Shown here one piece after another: positions 3,078 to 55,529 of a stretch of 64,000 nucleotides of DNA. A program made the position numbers and the translations under genes. This DNA comes from an uncultured Lactococcus sp. (GTDB lineage: Bacteria; Bacillota; Bacilli; Lactobacillales; Streptococcaceae). The stretch is taken from assembly GCF_934191625.1 (NCBI RefSeq), contig NZ_CAKPUG010000001.1, positions 248,001 through 312,000 of the forward strand. Direction: 5' to 3'. The notes under the pieces are model-generated. The model saw only the letters and a list, made by a program, of their open reading frames with translations. It did no database searches and had not been told where the DNA came from. The first letter of the stretch is position 1. Each line of letters starts with the position of its first letter.

Positions 3078-3876
3078 AAAGATCTGGTTAGTAGGGAATT
3101 CAAGTGAAAAATCACAAAAGACGCTGTTAGAATTAACAGCGCTTTTGCAGTCTAAAAATTTCAAGTTTGAAAAGGAAAACCCAGAAATTGTTATTTCAGT
3201 CGGGGGAGATGGCACGCTCCTCAAAGCTATGCACCTCTATGAGGACAAGCTGGATAAAATTCGCTTTGTCGGTGTTCATACGGGACACTTAGGATTTTAT
3301 ACTGATTTTATGAATACAGAGCTAGATAAGGTGGCTCTTGCCTTAGAGTCTGAAACAGCTGAGCATGCGGTTCATTATCCCCTATTGCGGATCTGTGTAA
3401 AATTTCAGGATGGTTCAGAAATGCTACATTATGCGTTGAACGAATCCACAATTCGCCGAACCTCTAAGACTTTAGTCGCGGATATTAAAATTTCCGATTT
3501 TCTCTTTGAGAAATTTCGAGGAGATGGACTATCTGTATCAACACCAACCGGTTCAACTGCTTATAATAAATCTATTGGTGGCGCCGTTTTGCACCCACGT
3601 GTTGAGGCTATGCAGATGGCTGAAATAGCCAGTCTTAATAATATTGTATATCGGACATTAGGGGCGCCGATGGTTGTTGCTAAGAAAGACAGTATCATTA
3701 TTTCTCCGGAAGATGCTGAGGATTATAGTGTTACTGTCGACCAGCTAACTTTCAACTATGAAAAAATTGAAGCTATTGAGTATAGCATGGATGGTAAGAC
3801 CATTGCTTTTGCAAATTGTGCTCATACAAGCTTTTGGGAACGCGTCAAAAATGCATTTATTGGCGAAGTTGAGTAA
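3064..3876 (+). CDS. ppnK: NAD kinase
   Basis: ATP- or polyphosphate-dependent phosphorylation of NAD to NADP. The 270-aa protein carries the hallmark GGDGT motif (VGGDGTLLKAMH, near residue 43), the NE/S pair (LNESTIRR) and a glycine-rich TGSTAYNKSIGG segment. The ATG at 3064 is preceded by CGGAGAAG and lies inside the end of relQ, implying coupling. The reading frame stays open further upstream, but those codons belong to relQ. The order relQ-ppnK-rluD is conserved in many Firmicutes. Confidence 0.93.
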   Translation: MSSGKKIWLVGNSSEKSQKTLLELTALLQSKNFKFEKENPEIVISVGGDGTLLKAMHLYEDKLDKIRFVGVHTGHLGFYTDFMNTELDKVALALESETAEHAVHYPLLRICVKFQDGSEMLHYALNESTIRRTSKTLVADIKISDFLFEKFRGDGLSVSTPTGSTAYNKSIGGAVLHPRVEAMQMAEIASLNNIVYRTLGAPMVVAKKDSIIISPEDAEDYSVTVDQLTFNYEKIEAIEYSMDGKTIAFANCAHTSFWERVKNAFIGEVE

Positions 3877-5258: not shown

Positions 5259-6011
5259 TTAAAAGTCCCAACCTTTGATAATTTTAACGCCAGTAATTTT
5301 TTCTGGATTTACAGGTGATGATTCTTCTTGTGGGTTATTTGGATTAGCTTTCACTTTTCCTGCAGCAATTTTATCAACAACATCCATGCCAGATATTACT
5401 TGACCAAAGACCGTGTATTGACCGTCAAGGAAAGGTGAGCCACCATTTTTATAAGCATCGATAATCTTTTCAGGATATTTACTTGTACTCAATCCTTGTT
5501 CCGCTGCTTGGGGGTTTTGAACAATAAAAAATTGGGAACTACTTGTTTCTCCAGGGCCACTATTTGCTAAGGATACTGCTCCACGAATATGATAAAGCTG
5601 ATCCGAAATCTCAGTAGCGAAAGGTTTATTGTTGTTTACTACGGATTTACTGCCGGTCCCTTTATTGCTTGGGTCACCAGTTTGAATCATGAAATCATTA
5701 ATTACACGGAAAAATTCATTATTTTTATAGTAACCTTGTTTAGCCAAAGTCAAGAAGTTTTCGACAGCCATTGGTGCCAGTTTAGGGAAGAGTTTGATGT
5801 TAATATTCCCAGCTGTTGTTTGAATTTGAACTTCAGCTTCATCCTTGCCAACTTCTTTCGTCAACTGAGGGAGTTCAATATTTTGCAAATCATTTTTTGA
5901 GTCTGTCTTGCTGTCAGAACTGTTCGCAAAGTAAAGAAGACCACCAACGATAACGACGATGAGGATTAATAATCCTCCAAAGATAATATTCGTATTTTTT
6001 TTCTTTTCCAT
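5259..6011 (-). CDS. Membrane-anchored cyclophilin-type peptidyl-prolyl isomerase
   Basis: A 250-aa protein with an N-terminal membrane anchor (residues 8-29, IIFGGLLILIVVIVGGLLYFA), a short Ser/Asp/Lys-rich linker, and a cyclophilin domain (FFRVINDFMIQTGDPSNKGTG, ANSGPGETSSSQFFIVQN, FGQVISGMDVVDKI). It should catalyse proline isomerisation of secreted proteins at the cell surface. There is no lipobox cysteine, so the anchor is a helix. TAAAAT with an upstream TG ends 6 bases before the ATG, so the mRNA may be leaderless, although AGGA is present between them. Confidence 0.88.
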   Translation of the reverse strand: MEKKKNTNIIFGGLLILIVVIVGGLLYFANSSDSKTDSKNDLQNIELPQLTKEVGKDEAEVQIQTTAGNINIKLFPKLAPMAVENFLTLAKQGYYKNNEFFRVINDFMIQTGDPSNKGTGSKSVVNNNKPFATEISDQLYHIRGAVSLANSGPGETSSSQFFIVQNPQAAEQGLSTSKYPEKIIDAYKNGGSPFLDGQYTVFGQVISGMDVVDKIAAGKVKANPNNPQEESSPVNPEKITGVKIIKGWDF

Positions 6012-6026
6012 TCCTATATTTTAACA
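6012..6026 (-). promoter_or_regulatory. Extended -10 promoter of ppiB, probably leaderless
   Basis: On the minus strand TGT-TAAAAT (hexamer 6023-6018) then six bases (ATAGGA) and ATG. The predicted start of transcription coincides with the start codon. Confidence 0.5.
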
Positions 6027-6066
6027 TAAAAGTTTCGAAGACTAAACGACGACAAAAAGTTTATAC

Positions 6067-6095
6067 TTGCAAATTTCAAAATAAAGGACTATACT
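6067..6095 (+). promoter_or_regulatory. Promoter of the permease leader
   Basis: TTGCAA (6067-6072), 17-base spacer, TATACT (6090-6095). Predicted transcription start is about 6102, giving a leader of roughly 230 bases before the permease. Confidence 0.75.
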
Positions 6096-6114
6096 AAATA
6101 AAAATATCGGAAAG

Positions 6115-6285
6115 GAGAATCACATATGTTTAAGTTTGACTTACAATCTCAACATCATCATGCGCATAGATAAGAGTTGTGTCATACTTTGGTATAGATG
6201 CAACTTTAGAGTACGCTCGAAAGACATCTATGCCGGTGATTCTCAGAAAGACCGGATAGCTAGGCTATACGGTCTTTTCTTTTGG
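6115..6285 (+). promoter_or_regulatory. Attenuator: competing stems and terminator before the permease
   Basis: Visible pairings are: (a) GAGAATCAC 6115-6123, overlapping the leader Shine-Dalgarno, with GTGATTCTC 6236-6244, 9 bp; (b) GGTATAGATG 6191-6200 with CATCTATGCC 6225-6234, 10 bp with one G-U; (c) GCATAGAT 6164-6171, inside the last leader codons, with ATCTATGC 6226-6233, 8 bp, exclusive with b; (d) CCGGT 6233-6237 with ACCGG 6251-6255, exclusive with the terminator; (e) terminator AAAGACCG 6247-6254 with CGGTCTTT 6270-6277, then TTCTTTT. Which states favour read-through is not settled by eye. Confidence 0.7.
6126..6173 (+). CDS. Histidine-rich leader peptide, 15 aa (putative attenuator)
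   Basis: The ORF encodes MFKFDLQSQHHHAHR and stops at TAA. Four of its last six residues are histidine. The Shine-Dalgarno AAAGGAGA sits 8-9 bases before the ATG, better than that of most genes here. It lies between a good promoter and an intrinsic terminator upstream of an amino-acid permease. Its size, composition and position are those of a transcription-attenuation leader peptide in which ribosomes stall when charged tRNA-His is scarce. It is too short for routine gene finding, and translation is inferred. Confidence 0.75.
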   Translation: MFKFDLQSQHHHAHR

Positions 6286-6334
6286 GCAAAATTATGCTGT
6301 AAATAAATGAAAAAGTATTAAAGAAAGTAAAAAT

Positions 6335-7765
6335 ATGAAAAATGAAAATCAAGTAAAGCGCAATTTAAAACAAAGACACATCACCATGATTGCGCTTGGT
6401 GGCACGATCGGAACAGGTTTGTTCCTAACCTCAGGAGCGACTATTAGTCAGGCTGGTCCTTTCGGATCAGTTCTGGCTTATATCTTTGTCGGGATTATGG
6501 TTTATTTTGTAATGACTTCTTTAGGAGAGATGGCCACATATTTGCCCACATCGGGTTCCTTTACAGATTATGGAGCACGCTTTGTAGATCCTGCCTTTGG
6601 TTTTGCTTTGGGCTGGAACTATTGGATAAACGGAGCAATTACGATTGCAGTTGATTTGACAACGGCAGGTTTAATTACACAATTTTGGTTTCCTCAGATT
6701 CCCTCTTGGATCTTCTCTGGTGTAGCCACAGTCCTTATTTTTGCAATTAATATCATGGCGGTACGTGCGTTTGGGGAAACAGAATATTGGCTTTCCATTA
6801 TCAAGCTGATTACAATTATTGTCTTTCTGGTTGTTGGAGTATTAACCATTATTGGAATTTTTGGAAATAACATTGATGTTGTTGGTAATCTCACAGCAGG
6901 GAATCACGGCTTTACTGGGGGAGTGACGGGATTTGTTGGTGTTTTGCTCATCGCAGGCTTTTCTTTTCAAGGCACAGAACTTCTGGGAGTTACAGCTGGA
7001 GAATCAGAAAATCCTGAGAAAAGTATCCCTAAAGCGATGAATTCTATTTTTTGGCGTATCCTTCTTTTTTACATTTTTACTATTATTATTATTGCAGCTA
7101 TTATTAACTACCAAGACCCCCGTTTACTTAATCCTGATTCGACAGCGGTTATGAGTCCTTTTACTATCGTTTTTAAGAATATTGGTTTGGCAGTAGCAGC
7201 GAGCTTAATGAATGCCGTGATTTTGACCTCGGTTATCTCGTCAGCAAATTCTGTAATGTATGCTTCAACACGTATCCTCTATTCTTTAGGGGAAAAAGAT
7301 GGTGCGCCACGCCAGTTCTCAAAGATAGCTAAAAACGGTATTCCAATCAATGCCCTATTAGCAACGACAGCGGTGTGTGTGATTGCATTTTTAACAGGAA
7401 TTTTCGGCACCCAAATTTATCTTTTGCTTGTGGATTTATCCAGTTTGACTGGATTTATTGCATGGCTTGGGATATCGATTAGTCATATTCGTTTCCGTCG
7501 TGCTTTCTTAGCTCAAGGCGGTGATTTGAGCAGCTTGCCTTATCAAGCAAAATGGTTTCCTTTTGGACCGATCTTATCTCTAATCATGACGGCAATGATT
7601 GTAGTCAATTTAGATCCAGCCATGCTTTTCAGCAGTCACTGGGGTGAAGGATTGGCTATGTATGCCGCAATACCGCTTTTTTTAGCTTTGTACTTGGGCT
7701 ATAAATGGAAGTACAATACGAAACTAGTACCACTCAAAGCGGTAGATTTGAGCCGGGAGAAATGA
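6335..7765 (+). CDS. Amino-acid permease, APC/AAT family (LysP/HisP-like; histidine suggested by leader)
   Basis: A 476-aa integral membrane protein with about 12 helices. The signature GGTIGTGLFLTSGATISQAGP near residue 20 and GFSFQGTELLGVTAGESENP in the middle define the LysP-like amino-acid/proton symporters. Lactococcal relatives transport lysine or histidine. Homology alone does not decide which, but the histidine-rich leader argues for histidine (and perhaps arginine). The ATG has only a weak purine stretch upstream, so regulation probably acts at the terminator at 6247-6285. A binding lipoprotein follows after 12 bases and is likely co-transcribed. Confidence 0.88.
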   Translation: MKNENQVKRNLKQRHITMIALGGTIGTGLFLTSGATISQAGPFGSVLAYIFVGIMVYFVMTSLGEMATYLPTSGSFTDYGARFVDPAFGFALGWNYWINGAITIAVDLTTAGLITQFWFPQIPSWIFSGVATVLIFAINIMAVRAFGETEYWLSIIKLITIIVFLVVGVLTIIGIFGNNIDVVGNLTAGNHGFTGGVTGFVGVLLIAGFSFQGTELLGVTAGESENPEKSIPKAMNSIFWRILLFYIFTIIIIAAIINYQDPRLLNPDSTAVMSPFTIVFKNIGLAVAASLMNAVILTSVISSANSVMYASTRILYSLGEKDGAPRQFSKIAKNGIPINALLATTAVCVIAFLTGIFGTQIYLLLVDLSSLTGFIAWLGISISHIRFRRAFLAQGGDLSSLPYQAKWFPFGPILSLIMTAMIVVNLDPAMLFSSHWGEGLAMYAAIPLFLALYLGYKWKYNTKLVPLKAVDLSREK

Positions 7766-7777
7766 TAAAATGAAAGC

Positions 7778-8581
7778 ATGAAAAAAATCAAATTCTACTT
7801 GTTTCCCTTCCTCCTGTTATTTATTTTTATGAGCTTGACTGCCTGTGGAGTGAATACGGAGAAAAATACATGGCAAAAGATTGAAGGAAGCAAGACGATT
7901 ACAATTGGTTATGAGGCAGATTTTGCGCCTCTAACTTCAAGTCAAGCGAATGGTAAACCAGAAGGTTTCAATGTTGCTTTAGCAGAGTCAATCTTTGCTT
8001 CTTACAATATAAAGATTGATTGGAAAGCATTGGACTGGTCGGGTAAAGAAAAAGCTTTGAAAGATGGAGAGGTTGATCTAATTTGGGGCCCTTATATAGC
8101 CAATAAGACAAGGGAAAAGTCTATTTTATTTAGTCAACCTTATCACACGGGGAATTTAGTGTTACTCGTCCCTAAAAAGGCAGAACTTTATAACATTGGC
8201 GACATGCATAATCAAGCAATAGGGGGACAAAAAGCTTCAGCAGCTTATGATTTATTTAGTAATAATCCACAGATTTTAAAAAATATTGTTAGAGAAAACC
8301 TGATGTTCCTCTATAACCAACCGAGTGATGTCATCGCAGCTTTACAAGAAGGAAAAATTCAAGCAGCACTTTTAGATAAGGATTATACTAGAACTTATCT
8401 TCATAATCATCAACTTGGTGGATTATATAATATACTAGATACTCCTTATCCACAAGTTGAATATGTTGTAGCAGCACGAAAGAAAGATACCGAATTAATG
8501 AGTAAAGTTAACCAAGGTCTACAAGCCCTTCAACAATCCGGTGAATTTAGTAAGCTATCTAAGCAATGGTTTTTACCCTAA
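7778..8581 (+). CDS. Amino-acid-binding lipoprotein (SBP family 3), orphan
   Basis: A 267-aa extracellular solute-binding lipoprotein. It has a basic start, a hydrophobic stretch, and the lipobox LTAC with the lipidated Cys near residue 23. A bac_3 domain follows (ITIGYEADFAPLTS, GFNVALAESIF, WSGKEKALKDGEVDLIWGPY). Such proteins normally feed an ABC importer, but no permease or ATPase gene is adjacent. Instead it follows the APC permease in one unit ending at a strong terminator. It may supply an ABC system elsewhere, or sense or concentrate the same amino acid as the permease. Ligand unknown. Confidence 0.85.
   Translation: MKKIKFYLFPFLLLFIFMSLTACGVNTEKNTWQKIEGSKTITIGYEADFAPLTSSQANGKPEGFNVALAESIFASYNIKIDWKALDWSGKEKALKDGEVDLIWGPYIANKTREKSILFSQPYHTGNLVLLVPKKAELYNIGDMHNQAIGGQKASAAYDLFSNNPQILKNIVRENLMFLYNQPSDVIAALQEGKIQAALLDKDYTRTYLHNHQLGGLYNILDTPYPQVEYVVAARKKDTELMSKVNQGLQALQQSGEFSKLSKQWFLP

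Positions 8582-55458: not shown

Positions 55459-55529
<71 letters not shown>

Follow-up and report, generated by a model that had tools for sequence, protein, structure and literature searches.

A histidine-codon leader related to the trpB motif as a putative ribosome-mediated attenuator of a probable histidine importer in Lactococcus

A leader containing a run of histidine codons precedes an amino-acid permease gene in an uncultured Lactococcus sp., and it is very probably a transcription attenuator in which the ribosome reads the supply of histidyl-tRNA and thereby controls a histidine importer. The leader lies on the forward strand of the window, by which we mean the whole 64,000-nucleotide stretch of DNA that was analyzed, and is related to the RNA family RF04312 (trpB motif). 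Comparison with other genomes makes a broader reading likely: RF04312 would be not a metabolite riboswitch but a modular attenuator chassis of the Lactobacillales, in which the codons of a leader ORF (Trp, His, or Phe/Tyr/Trp) lying outside the published motif set the amino acid that is sensed. One RNA switch would have been re-addressed to a range of transporters and enzymes; a lock between the Shine-Dalgarno (SD) sequence and an anti-SD would, in Streptococcaceae, make read-through depend on both initiation and a stall; and the codon run would predict the substrates of unannotated importers.

Organization of the leader

Upstream of the leader ORF lies a promoter-like sequence recovered by a motif scan (TTGCAA-17-TATACT, 6067 to 6095; 9 of 12 matches). 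Its surroundings hold 17 such sites on both strands versus 8.4 expected, and the match is weak evidence by itself. Among the 152 related loci described below, 80 have an upstream -35 of TTGCA followed by A or T together with a -10-like box, and 123 have some -35/-10-like pair.

Downstream, element A (6112 to 6124) consists of the SD sequence AAGGAG (6112 to 6117) followed by AAUCAC. The 15-codon leader ORF (MFKFDLQSQHHHAHR, 6126 to 6173) has its ATG at 6126 to 6128 and its UAA (TAA) stop codon at 6171 to 6173, and three successive CAU codons (His10 to His12, 6153 to 6161) constitute the regulatory run, the first lying six codons before the stop. Element B (GCAUAGAU, 6164 to 6171) spans the end of an Ala codon, a His codon, an Arg codon, and the first base of the stop; it is close to a repeat of element D and is able to pair with F. 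The initial annotation had raised the possibility of a "His/Arg" importer, a specificity that we reject because the fourth His codon and the Arg codon (AGA) belong to element B, which also ends many Trp leaders (WQSWHR*).

Element C (6173 to 6187) begins with the final base of the stop codon and, by the pairing analysis, has element D as its partner. Pairing and covariation define both D (GGUAUAGAUGCAACUUU, 6191 to 6207), which can pair with C or F, and G (GUGAUUCUC, 6236 to 6244), the putative anti-SD. Between them, F/F' (CAUCUAUGCCGGU, 6225 to 6237) can pair with D, with B, or, through 6228 to 6231 and 6233 to 6237, with the 5' arm of the terminator. The intrinsic terminator (6246 to 6283) is a hairpin at 6246 to 6278 with a T-rich tail to 6283, and within it lies T5' (ACCGGAUAG, 6251 to 6259), the 3' strand of the antiterminator. 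A simple pattern scan of the window for terminators did not flag the hairpin at 6246 to 6278. The promoter, SD sequence, leader peptide, and terminator proposed in the initial annotation are all present, with the reservation about the promoter already given.

The segment from 6191 to 6284 matches the RF04312 covariance model over its full length (model positions 1 to 107; E = 6.9e-6 in a 401-base search) and contains the P1 hairpin followed by an intrinsic terminator, but its score of 48.3 bits falls below the curated cut-off of 59, and the element is an RF04312-related subtype, not a curated member. The RF04312 model starts at D; the ORF and element C are outside it. The sole Rfam match above cut-off in the window is a tRNA gene at 55459 to 55529.

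Alternative pairings and their covariation

A:G (6115 to 6123 with 6236 to 6244) forms nine Watson-Crick pairs, D:F (6191 to 6200 with 6225 to 6234) ten pairs, one of which is U-G, and B:F (6164 to 6171 with 6226 to 6233) eight Watson-Crick pairs, confirming three pairings that had been noticed by eye. How stalling might lead to antitermination was not obvious to the initial annotation, and two further pairings provide the link. Element C (6173 to 6187) and D (6192 to 6207) form a 15-bp hairpin (-14.0 kcal/mol when counted from 6170), and F' pairs with T5' through CCGGU (6233 to 6237) with ACCGG and CUAU (6228 to 6231) with AUAG, both partners lying in the 5' arm of the terminator (6251 to 6259). 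In relatives, the antiterminator is rebuilt from other bases (CUGGU:ACCAG, GCGCU:AGCGC, CCUAGC:GCUAGG, and UCUAUGC:GCAUAGA). Sequence and covariation together support mutually exclusive antiterminator and terminator structures 3' of the ORF, C:D versus D:F and F':T5' versus T5':T3'.

Each helix was compared with helices assembled from strands swapped among loci, a test that removes shared descent only in part. Own strands beat swapped ones across 108 representatives (C:D, z = -12.7; A:G, -11.5; F':T5', -11.0; D:F, -10.0) and within the His/aromatic group (C:D, -7.7; D:F, -5.4; A:G, -5.2; F':T5', -4.3), and each of the four helices reaches a z of -3.6 or beyond in both the His/aromatic and the Streptococcaceae Trp groups. 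For the Lactobacillales outside the Streptococcaceae, the corresponding values are -9.2 for C:D, -2.6 for F':T5', -2.4 for D:F, and -1.8 for A:G; at -6 kcal/mol or better, F':T5' is available in 38 of 42 members of this set and A:G in 12 of 42. Own B:F pairs hardly beat swapped ones (z = -1.8 over all).

Covariation was also read from an alignment of 89 distinct rows (A6, including one minus-strand row, from L039), which was fitted to A:G and D:F, with C:D and B:F outside the fitted structure. For A:G and D:F jointly, 92.2% of cells are paired and two-sided changes occur in 13 of 19 pairs, A:G alone contributing such changes in 9 of its 9 pairs in this alignment fitted to the helix. C:D is paired in 93.2% of cells, with two-sided changes in 7 of 15 pairs, and B:F in 92.5%, with two-sided changes in 2 of 8 pairs, a number that shuffles equal.

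Folding with and without ribosomes

Folding of the RNA, one of the checks put forward in the initial annotation, indicates that the leader (6101 to 6290) is far more stable than shuffled sequences (-61.5, where 200 shuffles average -38.7 with a standard deviation of 4.0; z = -5.7), and no shuffle was as good. As long as the SD sequence is free, every ribosome state tried has its minimum at D:F plus A:G once the nascent end reaches 6246, and with a stalled ribosome equilibrium folding still gives this combination -35.0 versus -29.0, so the model requires either SD occupancy or kinetic control.

Covering the SD sequence changes the outcome. With a ribosome on His1, C:D plus the antiterminator is the minimum at nascent ends 6256 and 6260 (at 6260, -29.0 versus -24.7 for D:F), and with the ribosome on His3, the values at 6260 are -29.5 versus -27.0; at nascent ends 6236 and 6246, D:F is still the lowest under a covered SD and a stall. 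A ribosome at the stop codon with the SD covered blocks C:D, and D:F stands. When the SD is covered and there is no stall, the structures nearly tie (C:D, -33.0; C:D plus antiterminator, -32.7; D:F, -32.7). The ribosome footprint was assumed to be about 29 bases, such that a ribosome stalled on His1 would overlap an initiating one by a few bases. For the one sequence modeled, ribosome-mask folding agrees with a stall leading to read-through only with the SD covered.

Conservation in close relatives

A search of genome contigs with the permease yielded 12 loci, 9 of which are 79 to 99% identical. Five of these nine close loci have the leader at most 450 bases from the permease, and the other four (L003, L005, L006, and L008) have no leader within 450 bases. 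On the L006 contig, a leader (L032) lies about 450 bases before the permease, and at L008, a leader (L033) heads an operon of ABC permease, ATPase, binding protein, and APC permease.

The leader and its downstream elements are kept in Lactococcus petauri, L. formosensis, L. cremoris, L. nasutitermitis, and Lactovum miscens. The window, L. petauri, and L. formosensis share the same peptide, whereas that of L. cremoris (L004) is MNNFSLRHHHLHR, that of L. nasutitermitis MFSILPTVHHHLHR, and that of Lactovum miscens MFIQHHHLHR. All five close relatives retain HHHxHR*, and the His codons vary synonymously between CAU and CAC. Alignment across related Lactococcus, which the initial annotation had also proposed as a check, finds conserved His codons and covarying helices, which supports the annotation's central claim that a leader with His codons and an attenuator precede what is probably an importer of histidine.

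Codon types and target genes

A covariance model (R1) made from five leaders matches every one of 18 genomes in the genus, with one to four hits per genome, and 48 of 295 genomes in the family. In its weaker matches, the scaffold is the same but the codons differ (MSKTLPLTVYFFWRR, MNTPTITVYYYYRHG, MFKLNFKSWQSWRS, and MNMTQTLTHWQSWRR). A second model (R2), built from 64 matches, matches 69 of 295 genomes in the family and, at the level of the order, 92 of 395. The analyzed set comprises 152 loci: 92 in a first set, including the window, and 60 in a second, order-wide set (of the 97 R2 matches listed, 7 were already in the set, and 60 of the other 90 were taken). Minus-strand R2 matches on L039, L160, L162, L165, and L166, along with L067:3359-3490, a second record of the L038 position, were left out before counting. 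The reading in the initial annotation is largely right, but the element is no isolated case, the RF04312-related scaffold having Trp and aromatic forms as well.

All 152 loci have a terminator, and all have a leader of recognizable codon type (His, 24; aromatic, 17; Trp, 111), a completeness partly due to the selection rule, by which the leader at each locus was chosen by codon pattern among the small ORFs preceding the motif; by a similar pattern, 22 of 1237 control small ORFs contain leader-like codon clusters. The set includes 137 distinct peptides and hence some duplicates. No SD was recognized at L061. The first regulatory codon precedes the stop by six codons in 143 loci (His, 20 of 24; aromatic, 15 of 17; Trp, 108 of 111), and in 151, the start of a C-type motif falls at -1 to +4 nt relative to the end of the stop codon. 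Outside the Streptococcaceae, a second terminator-like hairpin follows the first at L173, L179, L193, and similar loci.

The codon type fits the downstream gene wherever its pathway can be named, and no His leader precedes a recognized Trp-pathway gene, or the reverse, at any of the 152 loci. Targets of the 24 His leaders are 12 HisP-like APC permeases, 9 unrelated amino-acid ABC permeases plus 1 assigned by eye (L024), 1 HisC, and 1 YjeM-like transporter. Aromatic leaders precede Fyw-like APC permeases in 15 of 17 cases, with 2 more read as truncated; HisP and Fyw are used here as labels for these two APC permease types. The 111 Trp leaders precede 94 TrpX-like binding proteins (above the cut-off of TrpX family NF041285 for L056, L039, and L160), 7 TrpB proteins plus that of L155, 1 OppA-like protein, and 5 others, with no gene found in 3 cases. 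The hisC assignment (L037) scores 314.6 bits against TIGR01141 (cut-off, 276.6).

Several targets have less obvious roles. The His-type leader MNNSILILVINHRHHR (L036) lies before the YjeM-like transporter, which suggests a histidine-related substrate for this protein. Trp codons occur in MQNQNSKRWQNWRS (L064), before the OppA-like binding protein, and in MHLSTGFSWQSWHR (L097), before a probable membrane protein of 399 amino acids that has no Pfam match at E ≤ 0.001 and no NCBIfam match at E ≤ 1e-20 and is a candidate tryptophan transporter.

Searches blind to the leader ORF

The RF04312 model, applied to 299 genomes of the class, returned 19 matches in 15 genomes, 8 of these genomes scoring above cut-off; among 14 named control genomes, only Lactococcus lactis gave a match, below cut-off. 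Eight of the 19 loci were new, and 11 had already been met through R2. In 18 of the 19, a leader containing codons for Trp, His, or Phe/Tyr ends 9 to 25 bases upstream of the match, and four of these 18 leaders (L213, L220, L222, and L227) have a single Trp codon. The match at L224 (39.4 bits), which has no leader and resembles the end of a coding region, was taken as false.

The leader FQFHHHHRFKGL (L219) precedes a HisZ-like gene (218 bits to TIGR00443, cut-off 272; 174 bits to Pfam tRNA-synt_His), so that the same leader type stands before this gene and before hisC, in line with the histidine reading of the initial annotation. At L227 (G001 C56:29221-29315), a Trp leader precedes TrpP (PF17099). 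The L. petauri genome (L001; copies include L218, L227, and L228) has three copies of three codon types, the His copy before a HisP-like permease, the aromatic copy before a Fyw-like permease, and the Trp copy before TrpP. At L221 and L223, Phe/Tyr leaders precede TrpX-like proteins that score under the TrpX cut-off and are perhaps Phe/Tyr importers.

At the level of the order, 173 of 395 genomes had an RF04312 match, 59 of them above cut-off. An automatic leader rule was passed by 81 of 88 RF04312 loci, compared with 52 passes at 3257 control points within these loci; the 88 consist of 79 of 80 selected loci (L331 was left out) and 9 further ones, of which L230 to L232 had been met before. 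Among the 81, 49 have at least two Trp codons and 32 have one. A single-Trp subtype with other spacing has its codon near the stop (RWQSR* or RWQGQ*; L220, L222, L287, L311, and similar). Inspection by eye finds an in-frame Trp codon in the upstream ORF at five failing loci (L272, L275, L302, L310, and L316), and L321 has TGG codons but no ATG start. The match at L314 (48.3 bits), a hairpin that lacks the conserved letters of the motif, was taken as false. Within the Lactobacillales, these comparisons make the interpretation of RF04312 as a codon-addressed chassis well supported.

The permease and its neighborhood

The gene behind the terminator (6335 to 7765) encodes an amino-acid permease of the APC superfamily (PF00324, 437 bits) that is probably a histidine importer. 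Its best NCBIfam model is PRK10836, which we take to be the LysP model (581 bits, under the cut-off of 735), and its relatives are named "amino acid permease" or "lysine-specific permease" in databases. HisP is reportedly the histidine permease of L. lactis.

Directly 3' of the permease lies a gene for a family-3 amino-acid binding lipoprotein (7778 to 8581); no ABC permease or ATPase was recognized among the ORFs of at least 80 amino acids listed up to 14000. A binding protein 36% identical to the 7778 to 8581 product occurs in an ABC operon under a like leader type at L124, and the lipoprotein may for this reason be a relic of such an operon.

Proposed mechanism and alternatives

With enough histidine, the ribosome would reach the stop codon and cover C, leaving D free for F; no antiterminator would form, and the terminator would stop transcription. 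When histidyl-tRNA is short, the ribosome would wait on the CAU run, six codons upstream of the stop, so that C:D could form, F would be free to pair with the 5' arm of the terminator, and polymerase would read into the permease gene. From the six-codon spacing and the assumed footprint of about 29 bases, C is predicted to be covered by a ribosome at the stop codon and left exposed by one six codons earlier. The A:G lock would add a second requirement: in an untranslated leader, D:F and A:G would keep the terminator on, and active initiation would be needed. This RF04312-type scaffold would be common to the Trp and aromatic versions, codons and downstream genes changing together. At the level of sequence, the leader has what defines this class of attenuator, a short ORF with an SD and codons of the regulated amino acid.

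A simpler ribosome-mediated scheme, overlapping with the one above, would need only leader translation and SD sequestration through A:G, with C:D and F':T5' unimportant. A:G has the richest covariation, in a mostly Streptococcaceae alignment fitted to A:G, but this scheme is quite unlikely, since A:G is weak in other Lactobacillales, where both C:D (z = -9.2) and F':T5' (-6 kcal/mol or better in 38 of 42) are retained. It is highly improbable that the His-rich peptide acts as a metal or drug sensor by nascent-chain arrest instead of reporting tRNA charging: HHHxH could bind Zn or Cu, but sister leaders carry Trp or Phe/Tyr in the same positions before Trp or aromatic genes, and His leaders precede hisC and a HisZ-like gene.

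In a metabolite riboswitch, as put forward with caveats for the trpB motif, the RF04312-like hairpin would recognize an amino acid or a similar ligand, and the ORF would be incidental; the ranking of the motif as a strong candidate in the main text of PMC11109978, for its covarying hairpins and terminator, would suit this reading. We regard this as very unlikely, given that nearly identical D and F elements accompany His, Trp, and aromatic genes while the ORF codons change with the target, that a leader ORF is found at 18 of 19 and 81 of 88 matches from searches blind to it, and that element C starts inside the stop codon. Least probable of all is a T-box or other leader that binds uncharged tRNA directly. 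His T-boxes are common in Lactobacillales according to the relevant passages of PMC9413887, and the leader of the pneumococcal trp operon, Spd-sr88, is named a T-box in the corresponding passage of PMC8546594, but RF00230 has no match in 6000 to 6400 at E ≤ 1, nor in the window at its gathering score. Both the T-box and the enteric His leader were rejected, there being no covariance-model match (RF00230 or RF00514) in 6000 to 6400.

Attenuation by leader translation would offer an explanation for a published orphan RNA class, and one that is testable in that a change of codon should change the amino acid sensed. Lactococci would gain a histidine-specific circuit beside the known His T-box, and histidine import is suggested for a permease with relatives that databases call "lysine-specific." The codon run also provides a means of proposing substrates for other transporters behind the same element. 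More generally, our analysis suggests that intergenic RNA motifs can lose their sensor if a short upstream ORF falls outside the motif boundary.

Relation to known systems

The main text of PMC11109978, whose authors count more than 900 representatives of the trpB motif, ranks the motif among the strong candidates for riboswitches, with ligand unknown and attenuation not ruled out; the words "Lactococcus" and "histidine" are absent from that text. RF04312 is presumably its SRC-39-1, to judge from the same name and structure. The window element resembles the motif in its P1 (D:F) hairpin, its intrinsic terminator, and an antiterminator strand in the right shoulder of P1, but differs in scoring below the Rfam cut-off and in possessing an ORF and an element C that the Rfam model omits.

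Histidine attenuators of Firmicutes, as characterized in the text and table of PMC9413887, occur only before his operons, in Bacillales (B. cereus group), Eubacteriales, and Erysipelotrichales; that table contains no Lactobacillales His attenuator and lists T-boxes for Lactococcus, and "APC," "lysP," and "hisP" are absent from that text. For bacilli, the relevant passages of PMC2965389 place His leader peptides before hisZ and hisS*. Compared by these descriptions, the window element shares their His-codon runs and terminator/antiterminator arrangement but, unlike them, does not precede a his operon, hisZ, or hisS*. T-box leaders (RF00230), lactococcal ones among them in the same passages of PMC9413887, likewise serve many amino acids from one scaffold through a codon-like element; they sense tRNA directly, however, and the window has no RF00230 match. 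A literature search, mainly of open texts without supplements, recognized no lactococcal His leader and no streptococcal or enterococcal Trp leader matching the element.

The leader of the enteric his operon combines a run of His codons in a short ORF with alternative hairpins and a terminator. The initial annotation had likened the window element to it, which is apt for the attenuation logic, the His-codon run, the alternative hairpins, and the terminator, but not for family membership, as RF00514 has no match at E ≤ 1 in 6000 to 6400; moreover, the enteric leader controls biosynthesis, whereas the window element would control transport and has an SD/anti-SD pairing. In the enterobacterial trp, phe, and leu attenuators, a ribosome stalled on the leader peptide chooses between hairpins, and these are usually described as separate families; here, by contrast, one alignable scaffold carries three codon types.
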